Positions 32,576-52,193 of a stretch of DNA of 64,000 nt are shown here, piece by piece. This DNA comes from Methylophaga marina (lineage in GTDB: Bacteria > Pseudomonadota > Gammaproteobacteria > Nitrosococcales > Methylophagaceae): positions 2,843,001 to 2,907,000 of the forward strand of contig NZ_AP027741.1 in the NCBI RefSeq assembly GCF_030296755.1, in the 5' to 3' direction. The translations under genes were made by a program, and so were the position numbers. The number at the start of each line of letters is the position of its first letter. Position 1 is the first letter of the stretch. The notes under the pieces were generated by a model. That model did no database searches and was not told where the DNA came from. It saw nothing but the letters and a program-made list of their open reading frames with translations.

Positions 32576-33632
32576 TTAAGCACGTCCTGACTTTAATTTT
32601 GTATGTAAGGATCCCAATAAATTCTCTGTGTCCTCCCAGCTAAGACATGGATCAGTAATAGATTGGCCAAATAGGGGGGATGACCATCTTCCTGCTTACC
32701 GTCCTCAATGTAACTCTCCAGCATTAGCCCCAACACATTGACATTGCCTGCTATTCGTTGGTCAATGACATCGTGTGAAATAGTCGCTTGTTTGCGATGT
32801 TGTCTGAGCGAGTTGTCATGGTTACAGTCAACTAAAACCTTGGGGCGACACTGATTGAATAAGAGCAAAGATATGGCTTGTTCTATCGACTCTTTATCGT
32901 AGTTTGTCAGTCCATTCCCCCGCGCAGAACGAGATGTGTGTCTATGTTTCCAGCTGTATTTTTCATACCAATTTGACCATCACCATTGACTGTCAACGTG
33001 TGGTGCTGACTTGAAGAAGCTCGCATAGCATTGATGGCATTGTGAATACGACCATCGGTACCATTTTTAATGCCGACTGGGCAGGGTAAGTCACTGACGA
33101 GTTCGCGATGAGGCTGTGATTCTGAAGTACGTGCTCCAATGGCTACCCAACTCACAAGATCATTAATGTAGTTCATGACAAGTGGATGAAGTGCTTCAGT
33201 AGCAATAGGCAAGCCAAGTTCAGCTAATTGCAGCAAAATACGTCTTGAGCTGTGTAAACCCAATGCCATATTACCTTGACCATTACGTAATGGATCATAG
33301 GCTAGCCCTTTCCAGCCAAGCGTTGTTCGGGGTTTTTCAACATACGCACGCATCACTATGAATAACTCGTCTTTAAGTTCAGCCGAGAGTTGTGCCAGTC
33401 GTCGACCATATTCCAGAGCGGCTTCCTCAGAGTCTATTGAGCAAGGACCCACAATGATCATCAGTCGATCGTCTGCATCGTTAAGTAGCCGCCGGATGGA
33501 TTGACGTTGTTCTGCTATCTGATGTTCCAGATTGTGTTTGATAGGAAGGGCCGCTTTGAGCTCAGCAGGTGTGGGTAGTCTGAGGCTCTCCGAATCGCAT
33601 TCATGTTGTAACGTATCGATAGAAGCGGTCAT
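32576..33632 (-). pseudogene. 3-deoxy-7-phosphoheptulonate (DAHP) synthase, two frameshifts
   Basis: Class I DAHP synthase of the E. coli AroF/G/H group: condenses phosphoenolpyruvate and erythrose-4-phosphate, the committed step to chorismate and all aromatic amino acids. The N-terminal frame shows IVGPCSIDS (metal Cys), MRAYVEKPRTTLGWKGL, and AIGARTSESQPHRE. The second shows VLVDCNHDNSLRQH. Adding one C at the 5-C run 32917-32921 restores LVLRGGNGLTNYDKESIEQA. Adding one G at the 6-G run 32674-32679 restores HPPLFGQSITDPCLSWEDTENLLG and a stop at 32576. Repaired length is 352 residues. Its 5' leader is an aromatic attenuator candidate (separate entries). Which of aroF, aroG or aroH it matches best I cannot tell. 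Confidence 0.88.
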
Positions 33633-33702
33633 GATAATGGTCCTTTTAAGCAGTCAGGACGAGACTGAGTCAAATGGTGCATCTGTTATTTCTCTACGCA
33701 TT

Positions 33703-33742
33703 AAAAAACCCCGTTGGCTGACTGACCATCCGGGGTTTTTTT
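33703..33742 (-). terminator. Attenuator terminator in DAHP synthase leader
   Basis: On the minus strand AAAAAACCCCG pairs with CGGGGTTTTTT around a 17-base spacer with an inner TGG/CCA pairing, giving an 11-bp stem and T-run. It lies about 70 bases before the DAHP synthase ATG and after the aromatic leader peptide, in the same transcript. On the plus strand there is no gene to end, so it is best read as a regulatory terminator. Confidence 0.85.
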
Positions 33743-33743
33743 A

Positions 33744-33803
33744 ATGGTAGTCAGCATGATGCCGGACTACCTTAACGATTTTAAGTGTTAGAGGTGAGCC
33801 GGC
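33744..33803 (-). promoter_or_regulatory. Competing attenuator/antiterminator segments
   Basis: On the minus strand four segments can pair in exclusive ways. A: GCCGGCT (33797-33803, inside the leader frame). B: GGTAGTCCGGC (33761-33771). C: GCTGACTACCAT (33744-33755). D: ATGGTCAGTCAGC (33717-33729, inside the terminator loop). A pairs with B (GCCGG/CCGGC). B pairs with C (GGTAGTC/GACTACC). C pairs with D over 12 bp with one bulge, which would disrupt the terminator. A candidate promoter precedes: TTTCCA (33945-33940), 17-base spacer, TAACAT (33922-33917). Confidence 0.65.
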
Positions 33804-33844
33804 TTTTGGCTATAAAAATAGCCATATGCAAACCACCAATACAT
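33788..33844 (-). CDS. Aromatic-rich leader peptide of the DAHP synthase gene
   Basis: An 18-codon frame encodes MYWWFAYGYFYSQKPAHL: eight of residues 2-11 are aromatic (four Tyr, two Trp, two Phe), a composition expected for a ribosome-stalling attenuator that monitors charged tRNA-Tyr, -Trp and -Phe. GAGAG lies 7 bases upstream as ribosome-binding site. The same frame is open from an ATG at 33910 (40 codons), but the likely transcription start falls near there, so the short form is preferred. A perfect hairpin (33808-33823: GGCTAT/ATAGCC) lies within the frame and could act as a pause hairpin. A terminator and the DAHP synthase gene follow. Confidence 0.78.
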   Translation of the reverse strand: MYWWFAYGYFYSQKPAHL

Positions 33845-33970
33845 CACAACACTCTCTGACAGCGTCAAGGAGAGTAGAACGGATTTTGCTGTTGTTGTTA
33901 ATGTATTCATAACGCTATGTTAATTCATCTGGTGAAATTTGGAAACCAACTGATTTCTTCGAAACAGTCA

Positions 33971-35044
33971 TTATTGACACCATGGGCAGGCAAGAGGTTC
34001 ACCGATAAAAATGCCTTCACCTGGCTGTTGAACTGATTTCCAATAGGCTTCAATAAGTGTGTCACCATCCATATAACTGGGAATTAGGATATAGGGATTA
34101 GGAAATTTTTGTGGGTAATTGCAGGGTTCAACTACCGTGCCATAACTCCCTGTTGCTCCAGCCTCAAGCCAACGATACGCTTTCATTTGCCCTTGTTTGT
34201 GGATGCCTGCACCACCGACAGAAGTTAAATGATCGGCAATCGCACCAGGTAAAAAGAGATTACTACTGATATCGGGTACCTGAACATAGCCCGTCATATA
34301 AAACATGACATCGCGTTTATTTCTTATGCTGGTGCCTTTTGTTCGTTTGCGGTCATCAACATAATGAATTTCTATGCCGTTTCTTTCTGGCCAGATATCG
34401 GCAATTTTTTTAAACATCCGCCAACGCGTGCTACGTTGATTATCCTGTGTACGGACAAGATAAGCATGACCTGAAGGCGCACTTTTATCAGCTCTGATGC
34501 CTCGTTCAATCAGTTTTTTGGCATCGATAAGATGACGTCCGCTCAACATCATACTCAAAGGTCTATCAGTGTTTTGCCAGAGATGTTCTGATTTAGCATT
34601 ATAAAAAGGGCTGTCTGCGGTAGGGTGACAACCCGATGGCCGCTGCTTGTTATGACTACAATAGCTTTCATCAAAGCCCAGACTCAATGCACTGGTTAGT
34701 GACATACAGCCGACGCGATAGGGGGCATGCCATGTCAGTAACAAAACCTTAATGTTCTCTGTCAAATGCGGTTTGATTTGAGACTCAATCACTGCAAATT
34801 GTTCGGGCGAAAGCGTCGATGAAGCTTCCTCAATAGATAGTCCGAGCATTTGTTCGGCTGGCACACTGCGTTTTTCAGTATAGAAGTCAGCAATCTTTTC
34901 AGATAAGGCATCCCCTTGTTTGTAGAGAATGAGGACATTTTTTCCTGATAGTGATGTGGCGGCATTAGCTAGAGATGCGGCGGTGAGCATCAAGCACAAG
35001 CCAGCAATTGTCAGTAAGTGTGATGGAGACAGCAACATATTCAC
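33971..35044 (-). CDS. TIGR03790-like exported protein
   Basis: The 357-residue protein has an N-terminal signal (LLTIAGLCLMLTAASLANA). The mature part begins GKNVLILYKQGDALSEKIADFYTEKRSVPAEQMLGL, the hallmark of the TIGR03790 family (Asn-x-x-Ile-x-Tyr with a later E-R-x-V-P). It has several Cys in the middle (YRVGCMSL, ESYCSHNKQRPSGC) and the C-terminal motif SYMDGDTLIEAYWKSV. No enzymatic role is known for the family. Monocistronic; its 3' end is upstream of the DAHP synthase promoter on the same strand. Confidence 0.75.
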   Translation of the reverse strand: MNMLLSPSHLLTIAGLCLMLTAASLANAATSLSGKNVLILYKQGDALSEKIADFYTEKRSVPAEQMLGLSIEEASSTLSPEQFAVIESQIKPHLTENIKVLLLTWHAPYRVGCMSLTSALSLGFDESYCSHNKQRPSGCHPTADSPFYNAKSEHLWQNTDRPLSMMLSGRHLIDAKKLIERGIRADKSAPSGHAYLVRTQDNQRSTRWRMFKKIADIWPERNGIEIHYVDDRKRTKGTSIRNKRDVMFYMTGYVQVPDISSNLFLPGAIADHLTSVGGAGIHKQGQMKAYRWLEAGATGSYGTVVEPCNYPQKFPNPYILIPSYMDGDTLIEAYWKSVQQPGEGIFIGEPLACPWCQ

Positions 35045-51969: not shown

Positions 51970-52119
51970 ATGACTTTAGCTTTAACCCCACTGATTTCAT
52001 TAATTGCCGGTATTTTAATTCTGATGGTACCGCGACTATTGAGTTACATTGTTGCGATTTATCTGATTATTATTGGTTTAGTTGGCTTATTTGGTACCAG
52101 TATTAATTTAACACCATGA
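51970..52119 (+). CDS. DUF3096 small membrane protein
   Basis: 49 residues, two hydrophobic helices split by MVPRLLSYIVAIYLIIIGLVGLFG, matching DUF3096. AGGAGAGAGAA is a strong ribosome-binding site directly before this ATG. A longer upstream frame from 51898 is only an extension. Function unknown. Confidence 0.82.
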   Translation: MTLALTPLISLIAGILILMVPRLLSYIVAIYLIIIGLVGLFGTSINLTP

Positions 52120-52141
52120 GATAAAACACATAATGCTGAAG

Positions 52142-52170
52142 AAGCCTCGACATTTCATCGGGGCTTTTTT
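52142..52170 (+). terminator. Intrinsic terminator after DUF3096 gene
   Basis: AAGCCTCGA / TCGGGGCTT stem with one G-T pair and seven-base loop, then a six-T run. Confidence 0.85.
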
Positions 52171-52193
52171 ATGTTTATCCCTATGACAGCGTT

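Follow-up and report, generated by a model that had tools for sequence, protein, structure and literature searches.

A putative ribosome-mediated transcription attenuator with codons for all three aromatic amino acids, preceding a DAHP synthase gene in Methylophaga marina

INTRODUCTION

DAHP synthase is the gate to the biosynthesis of Trp, Tyr, and Phe, and the DAHP synthases of enteric bacteria are controlled by TyrR and TrpR. In the classical trp, pheA, and his attenuators, a stalled ribosome chooses between alternative helices and an intrinsic terminator. Leader-mediated control has also been reported or proposed for several DAHP synthase genes. The leader AroR of aroF in Corynebacterium glutamicum (Neshat et al. 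2014) contains Phe-Tyr-Phe and responds to Phe and not to Tyr, according to the available parts of PMC11802643 and PMC4046766. In Acholeplasma, a motif upstream of aroF, uORFC-13-1, is described in the excerpted text of PMC8632094 as proposed to respond to Phe incorporation. For aroF of Escherichia coli, an attenuation hypothesis (Camakaris 1980) is cited in passages of PMC2659441 and PMC8632094, and a table in PMC2659441 lists a predicted attenuator sensing tyr-tRNA for aroF of Shewanella.

Here we analyze a leader upstream of a DAHP synthase gene in a 64,000-nucleotide stretch of the genome of Methylophaga marina (hereafter, the window). As the sources portray them, AroR shares with this leader an aromatic leader peptide before DAHP synthase and read-through on ribosome stalling, and uORFC-13-1 shares a small upstream open reading frame (uORF) and a terminator. 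As to differences, AroR is actinobacterial and is described with Phe-Tyr-Phe only and as responding to Phe, and uORFC-13-1 belongs to a different lineage. The E. coli and Shewanella proposals have attenuation of DAHP synthase in common with the leader, but the available portion of PMC2659441 describes no leader of this kind. Since leader-peptide control of DAHP synthase has already been reported for AroR and proposed for uORFC-13-1, the general principle is not new. What is new here is the combination of codons for all three aromatic amino acids, one more helix in the switch, an antiterminator directed against the upper part of the terminator, and a probable connection with an RNA filed in Rfam as a small RNA (sRNA).

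RESULTS

An aromatic-rich frame precedes the DAHP synthase gene. The preliminary description of this DNA had reported a short minus-strand frame full of Tyr, Trp, and Phe codons, and the sequence bears this out: the frame encodes MYWWFAYGYFYSQKPAHL, with an ATG at 33844 and a stop codon at 33790-33788 (Table 1). Eight of the ten residues of YWWFAYGYFY are aromatic, which makes it the sole stretch with at least eight among the 76,218 stop-free 10-mers in the six frames of the window, against a chance expectation of 0.05 loci per 64 kb in 20 order-1 Markov simulations. The short form stands as described, but its frame continues upstream; since it is open to an ATG at 33910 that is conserved in relatives, the peptide may be longer than first thought. 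Among five Methylophaga genomes, the frame measures 40 or 41 codons with both ATGs kept, the Trp-Trp pair is invariant, and two other positions vary, between Tyr and Phe only. The aromatic frame is kept between two divergent Methylophaga clades where the surrounding RNA has diverged. None of six peptides compared with NCBIfam, from leaders and second ORFs, had a model there, and four leader peptides had none in Pfam.

A candidate promoter was read by eye from the alignment; Methylophaga relatives carry TTTTCA and TAGAAT at its two hexamers, and a consensus promoter scanner reported no promoter on the leader stretch. The ATG at 33910 lies only 7 to 8 nt after the -10-like hexamer, so that, if this promoter reading is right, the transcript would begin on this ATG or right beside it, and a leaderless start there, without a 5' untranslated region, is possible. 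The frame of the upstream gene ends 60 nt before the upstream leader ATG. That gene (33971-35044) ends in closely similar sequence beside the leader in Methylophaga relatives, by which the order of the locus looks conserved.

Table 1. Features of the leader and its surroundings (window coordinates unless a locus is named)
Feature	Position	Strand	Basis or remark
Candidate promoter: -35 TTTCCA (33945-33940), 17-nt spacer, -10 TAACAT (33922-33917)	33917..33945	-	Putative; by eye, from alignment
Leader ORF from upstream ATG, 40 codons, MNTLTTTAKSVLLSLTLSESVVMYWWFAYGYFYSQKPAHL and stop	33788..33910	-	Frame and both ATGs conserved
Short leader ORF, MYWWFAYGYFYSQKPAHL and stop	33788..33844	-	Control codons Y W W F A Y G Y F Y, 33841-33812
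Segment 0 (Trp-Trp-Phe codons), possible partner of A	33828..33837	-	RNAalifold consensus, Methylophaga alignment
Segment A (GCCGG..ACC), end of leader frame	33793..33803	-	Sequence; A:B duplex versus shuffles
Segment B (GGTAGTCCGGC), partner of A or C	33761..33771	-	Sequence, duplex energies, consensus fold, ribosome model
Segment C (GCTGACTACCAT), partner of B or D	33744..33755	-	Sequence, duplex energies, consensus fold, ribosome model
Segment D (ATGGTCAGTCAGC), terminator hairpin top	33717..33729	-	Sequence, duplex energies, ribosome model
Intrinsic terminator AAAAAACCCCG...CGGGGTTTTTT, 11 pairs	33703..33741	-	Sequence; consensus fold; conserved in 5 Methylophaga leaders
Second small ORF, 17 codons, MHHLTQSRPDCLKGPLS and stop; TGA overlaps DAHP synthase ATG (ATGA)	33629..33682	-	Same in 5 leaders
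Hairpin GTCCT (33660-33656) with AGGAC (33644-33640), would cover DAHP synthase Shine-Dalgarno	33640..33660	-	Consensus fold
Class I DAHP synthase (aroFGH type), 5' part	32907..33632	-	PF00793; TIGR00034
RF00627 matches in f157	L231:1065-1185, L232:1054-1174, L236:1095-1214, L230:1610-1730		Coincide with DAHP synthase leader

The pairing segments and the terminator can likewise be read from the sequence where they had been placed. In the pairings, GCCGG..ACC of A meets GGT..CCGGC of B, GGTAGTC of B meets GACTACC of C, and C (GCTGACTACCAT) meets ATGGTcAGTCAGC of D at the top of the terminator hairpin. The 11 bp claimed for the terminator stem can be counted directly, from A33741-T33703 to G33731-C33713 (an automatic finder gave 10 pairs), and the distance to the gene, put at about 70 bases, is 70 nt to the DAHP synthase ATG at 33632. 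A simple terminator scanner reported none on the leader stretch; its rule permits loops of 3 to 8 nt only, which the loop of this terminator exceeds. In all four distinct Methylophaga leaders, the C:D and A:B duplex energies beat those of dinucleotide shuffles, with at most 5 (C:D) and 1 (A:B) of 200 shuffles as good; for the window, the figures were 1/200 and 0/200, respectively.

The gene downstream scores 279.2 bits against TIGR00034 (cutoff, 173.2) and also matches PF00793. By protein identity, its closest named relatives are in Methylophaga sp. SAT92 (99%), M. sulfidovorans (69%), and M. aminisulfidivorans (67%). A DAHP synthase paralog of this leader-bearing type was found at an identity of at least 67% in 4 of 23 genomes of the genus, its own included (G000, G012, G014, and G022), and the leader peptide was found at E < 1e-10 in 5 of 24, namely, the same four and G075, which is of the same species. 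Leader and gene thus occur together in all five Methylophaga genomes where this second DAHP synthase was found, and the frame, helices, and terminator are kept in all five, which bears out the conservation on which the earlier proposal depended. The genome of the window encodes another DAHP synthase of the same family elsewhere (L031), upstream of which no aromatic leader was found.

The DAHP synthase frame of the window is interrupted after 241 codons compared with an intact relative. Against SAT92, there are six single-base indels in 8.7 kb, four of which alter the length of a one-base run, while another lies beside a run; the DAHP synthase frame is broken by two single-base deletions (near 32916 and 32673), of which one falls within a G run and the other beside a C run. 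The frame of L031 also seems to be lost near its start, at a C run, judging from a by-eye comparison with the start position in relatives. With two broken DAHP synthase copies in one strain, sequencing error is favored over decay, and the indels in the gene look to us like the former.

Similar leaders precede DAHP synthase genes in other families. Leaders of the ..YGYWFS.. or ..GYWYWF.. type were first seen in families f159 (G218), f157 (G209), and f168 (G314). A class-wide search with DAHP synthase covered 369 genomes and gave 29 new loci; when the sequences upstream of 124 loci were scanned, the remaining class-wide loci showed no such leader, and a simple aromatic scan showed none before most other DAHP synthases, with a few short frames listed there. 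We take f157 to be Pseudomonadaceae on account of the Rfam matches given below, and f168 is perhaps Halomonadaceae. Leaders were called by a loose motif rule in the 600 to 900 nt upstream, at the best-scoring paralog in 70 of 91 f168 genomes, at the best 20 loci of 39 f157 genomes, and at 20 f159 loci from 17 genomes; the leader was present upstream of DAHP synthase at 70/70, 20/20, and 14/20 of these loci, respectively. The six f159 loci where no leader was found (L216 to L221) are weaker matches (E values of 1e-104 to 1e-101) and are probably another DAHP synthase paralog. A side observation concerns likely Vibrio DAHP synthases (L038, L046, L047, and L084), where a conserved stretch that reads ..F.YLYRF.. 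in one frame lies within about 60 nt upstream of the start; an operator, a promoter, and a further leader are all conceivable readings of it.

Structural tests in f168 omitted 28 of the 70 leaders, for which the terminator finder failed; inspection of 17 of these by eye showed a G+C-rich hairpin in 16, for the most part followed by a tail poor in T, and for L179 the site displayed was a wrong one. The C:D duplex fell within the best 5% of shuffles for 10/14 leaders in f159, 5/20 in f157, and 22/39 in f168, and the A:B duplex for 4/14, 3/20, and 18/39, respectively. In an alignment of 25 f168 leaders (A3), chosen from the 42 with a terminator found, 98.5% of the A:B cells are paired and 17 cells are changed on both sides, a level reached in 0 of 500 shuffles and compared with 24 to 65% for slid partners; B:C shows wobble changes only, and C:D is invariant within A3. 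When partners were swapped between leaders, the own partner beat the mean of the swapped ones in f168 for both A:B (38/39) and C:D (34/39) and in f159 for C:D (11/14). No own-partner advantage was seen in f157 (C:D, 13/20; A:B, 11/20) or for A:B in f159 (5/14), and the outcome in Methylophaga was 2/4 for each helix, the helices being nearly invariant there. Examples of C/D pairs are GGGTTGCC/GGCAACCC in L148 and CGTGCTGCC/GGCAGCACG in L106. Covariation among DAHP synthase leaders, which had been named as a check, was thus found for A:B in f168, the swap test supports C:D in f168 and f159, and B:C has wobble changes only.

In a folding model of growing transcripts, the position of the ribosome decides which helix forms. 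In full-length equilibrium folding of 13 leaders from four families, the terminator forms at 0.95 to 1.00 whatever the ribosome does. Since the finished terminator wins at equilibrium, the switch must be kinetic, and since terminators form during transcription, full-length folding was replaced by truncated transcripts. Growing transcripts of three leaders (those of the window, M. sulfidovorans, and M. aminisulfidivorans) were folded with a ribosome hiding everything as far as 12 nt beyond the first base of the A-site codon. With the A site at Trp3, Trp4, Phe5, Tyr7, Tyr9, or Phe10, A:B pairs at 0.99 to 1.00 and C:D at 0.98 to 1.00 once D has been made. With the A site at the stop codon, B:C pairs at 0.93 after C has been made, and when the transcript is 9 nt short of the stem end, B:C stands at 0.87 to 0.90 and C:D at 0.03 to 0.06. 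In the three leaders, the A:B helix disappears as the A site moves from Tyr/Phe11, the final aromatic codon, to Ser12, the one right after it; at Ser12, C:D remains at 0.94 to 0.99. In the window leader, C:D is at 0.65 with the A site at the stop codon and D just complete, falling to 0.06 four bases later; with the A site at Phe5 or Tyr7 before D is made, A:B reaches just 0.55 to 0.56 and B:C 0.40 to 0.41. Segment 0 is not decisive in the model, as A:B still forms without a ribosome once D has been made. Without a ribosome, C:D pairs at 0.91 to 0.99 in the three leaders, so that untranslated RNA is predicted to read through, unlike in classical leaders. In silico, then, the helix choice depends on ribosome position and the helices are mutually exclusive.

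The comparison with shuffles used a footprint of 9 nt past the stop codon (this and the footprint above are single assumed values), and only the stretch between the stop codon and the terminator was shuffled. For 66 of the 76 distinct leaders from the four families (4/4 in Methylophaga, 19/20 in f157, 12/14 in f159, and 31/38 in f168), no more than 10% of 30 shuffles attained the stalled-minus-stop difference in D pairing. The switching logic proposed from the letters of the window, with A:B and C:D on stalling and B:C at the stop codon, is thus reproduced in the model, and shuffled sequences rarely do the same.

These data bear on a first alternative, in which the aromatic frame goes untranslated and the terminator and hairpins are either constitutive or the tail end of the upstream gene. 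Such a terminator would explain why equilibrium folding of the full-length RNA terminates regardless of the ribosome, and the upstream frame does end close by, 60 nt before the upstream ATG; against this, two divergent Methylophaga clades both keep the frame with its aromatic codons, the ribosome-dependent switch exceeds that of shuffles, and no such leader was seen before the weaker f159 matches or before L031. We regard this alternative as highly improbable.

A second and much more serious alternative, which concerns the preliminary proposal that one leader would sense all three aromatic amino acids, is that the attenuator answers chiefly to a single one, such as Trp, the other aromatic residues being incidental. 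The invariant Trp-Trp pair of the five Methylophaga leaders, beside two positions that vary between Tyr and Phe, would fit this alternative, as would a Trp-Phe pair in every aligned leader of the other families, a pair favored by the rule that picked them; and AroR, with Phe-Tyr-Phe, is reported in PMC11802643 to respond to Phe and not to Tyr. The leader of the window has, however, eight aromatic codons of three kinds in ten, and the model predicts read-through for each stall tried, from Trp3 to Phe10. We give sensing of a single amino acid a substantial chance, somewhat short of even.

The leaders of f157 correspond to an RNA named in Rfam as "Pseudomonas sRNA P15" (RF00627). At a gathering score of 70 bits, RF00627 matches the f157 leaders L230, L231, L232, and L236 at 88 to 104 bits and L114 at 104.7 bits, that is, at least 70 bits in the five f157 loci given, out of the 20 in the sample. 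The match takes in the last part of the aromatic frame as well as the B:C hairpin and the terminator. Subcutoff scores were obtained in f159 (L103, 69.8 bits; L205, 67.2 bits) and f168 (L106, L147, and L148, 28.8 to 47.0 bits); RF00627 gave no match in the window, and none at E up to 2 at the M. sulfidovorans and M. aminisulfidivorans loci. The preliminary view that the leader belongs to no named RNA class therefore holds for the window, which has no Rfam match at gathering scores, but not for the similar f157 leader, which is in Rfam under the misleading name P15. P15 resembles the leader of the window in lying upstream of DAHP synthase and differs from it in being filed as an sRNA gene, with the window lacking a match. 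Available passages of PMC2375449 and PMC2527527 place P15 among the RNAs detected or confirmed in Pseudomonas aeruginosa by Livny et al. (2006), and PMC2527527 suggested in 2008, in the part available, that P15 might be a riboswitch, from synteny shared with the TPP riboswitch. None of the open-access papers listed ties P15 to a leader peptide or to DAHP synthase in the text that was available.

Our proposal is that P15 represents the terminated transcript of this attenuator in f157, and RF00627 may deserve reannotation as a cis-regulatory leader. It could instead be argued that the short RNA acts chiefly in trans as an sRNA, or that the peptide does, with cis control secondary, since Rfam files the Pseudomonas relative as an sRNA gene and a role in trans is reported for the attenuator leader peptide peTrpL of Sinorhizobium meliloti (partial text of PMC7298713). 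The position before the same gene in four families, the aromatic frame, and the ribosome-dependent refolding argue against this, and we consider a primarily trans-acting role unlikely.

A further alternative assigns control of the gene to a protein regulator (TyrR or TrpR) or to an RNA that binds tRNA or a metabolite, the leader being a relic. The control of enteric DAHP synthases by TyrR and TrpR speaks for the former. The riboswitch suggestion for P15 (PMC2527527, in part) speaks for the latter; however, no Rfam family matched the window at its gathering score, and the aromatic frame has been retained amid diverged RNA sequence, and we attach very little probability to either form of this alternative. 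Two subthreshold candidates in the window, Thr_leader (21.9 bits) and GcvB (18.2 bits), were not accepted as members of those families.

Membership of the Methylophaga leader in the wider group was examined with a covariance model (R1) built from 35 leaders of f157, f159, and f168, with Methylophaga left out. The best match of R1 in the window is the leader, at 21.3 bits and a roughly estimated E value of about 0.015, and R1 ranks the five Methylophaga leaders, themselves closely related, as its top five. The next match in the window, at 52059-52173 on the plus strand (18.5 bits), lies in an aromatic-rich frame; it is weak and probably due to chance. Peptide profile HMMs of the other families failed to recover the Methylophaga peptide (rank 7; E value of 0.79 without bias correction), and for this reason homology of the peptides is not claimed. 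Gene family, layout, and logic are alike between the Methylophaga leader and the P15 group, and as judged from sequence their homology is likely, though not proven. In a plasmid collection, no leader-bearing relative appeared by name among the matches listed, all of which were below 60% identity, and L231 had no DNA match.

A second small ORF lies between the terminator and the gene. In the five Methylophaga leaders, it is identical in its length of 17 codons and in its ATGA overlap with DAHP synthase, and it is not aromatic. (A Pfam match of one second-ORF peptide to Cadherin_tail, at an E value of 0.11, was below the cutoff and was rejected.) Of the four consensus pairs of the hairpin over the Shine-Dalgarno sequence, two carry changes in both partners in two of the five sequences, one is invariant, and one is broken in two; the pairs that flank these are not the same from one Methylophaga clade to the other. 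The ORF and the hairpin hint at possible translational coupling or a second check. In the other families, a WRF-like small frame between terminator and gene was counted at 19/20 leader-bearing loci in f157, 56/70 in f168, and 6/14 in f159 by a loose motif rule with no chance control; a second aromatic ORF of the WRFS type after the terminator can be seen, for example, in L114, L106, and L205.

DISCUSSION

An aromatic-rich frame upstream of a biosynthetic gene, with an intrinsic terminator between the leader and the gene, is what marks an attenuator, and both are found here. On the sequence and the folding model, the leader is very probably a ribosome-mediated transcription attenuator of the DAHP synthase gene. 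Its operation would comprise the following steps: (i) when charged aromatic tRNA is short, the ribosome would stall on the Tyr, Trp, or Phe codons, upstream of A; (ii) the stalled ribosome would leave A exposed to pair with B, which would set C free; (iii) the free C would capture D, at the top of the terminator hairpin, while the 3' arm of the terminator is still unfinished; (iv) with C:D formed, RNA polymerase would read into the DAHP synthase gene; and (v) a ribosome reaching the stop codon would instead hide A, so that B:C would form and D would be left for the terminator. We infer that, in Methylophaga, the leader is transcribed, that the ribosome actually stalls, that read-through follows, and that aromatic amino acids are what is sensed.

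As in the classical attenuators, a stalled ribosome would pick between alternative helices and an intrinsic terminator. The leader of the window differs from those of trp and pheA in having one extra switching step between the control codons and the antiterminator, and from the classical attenuators in the target of its antiterminator, which is the upper part of the terminator hairpin.

A wider reading can be offered only tentatively, since we hold its chances to be clearly below even, namely, that a two-stage pan-aromatic control is widespread in gammaproteobacteria: a first uORF (..YGYWFS..) would govern termination, a second uORF (..WRFS.., or the coupled 17-codon ORF in Methylophaga) would govern translation of DAHP synthase, and P15 would be the product terminated at the first stage. 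The tandem second aromatic ORF in many loci hints at two such successive checks.

To conclude, if the attenuator reading is true, it would explain P15 of Pseudomonas, which is listed as an sRNA and for which a riboswitch was suggested in 2008, as an attenuator that can be tested directly in a laboratory strain. If the codons of all three aromatic amino acids take part in the control, the gate gene of their biosynthesis would be provided with one combined sensor at the RNA level.
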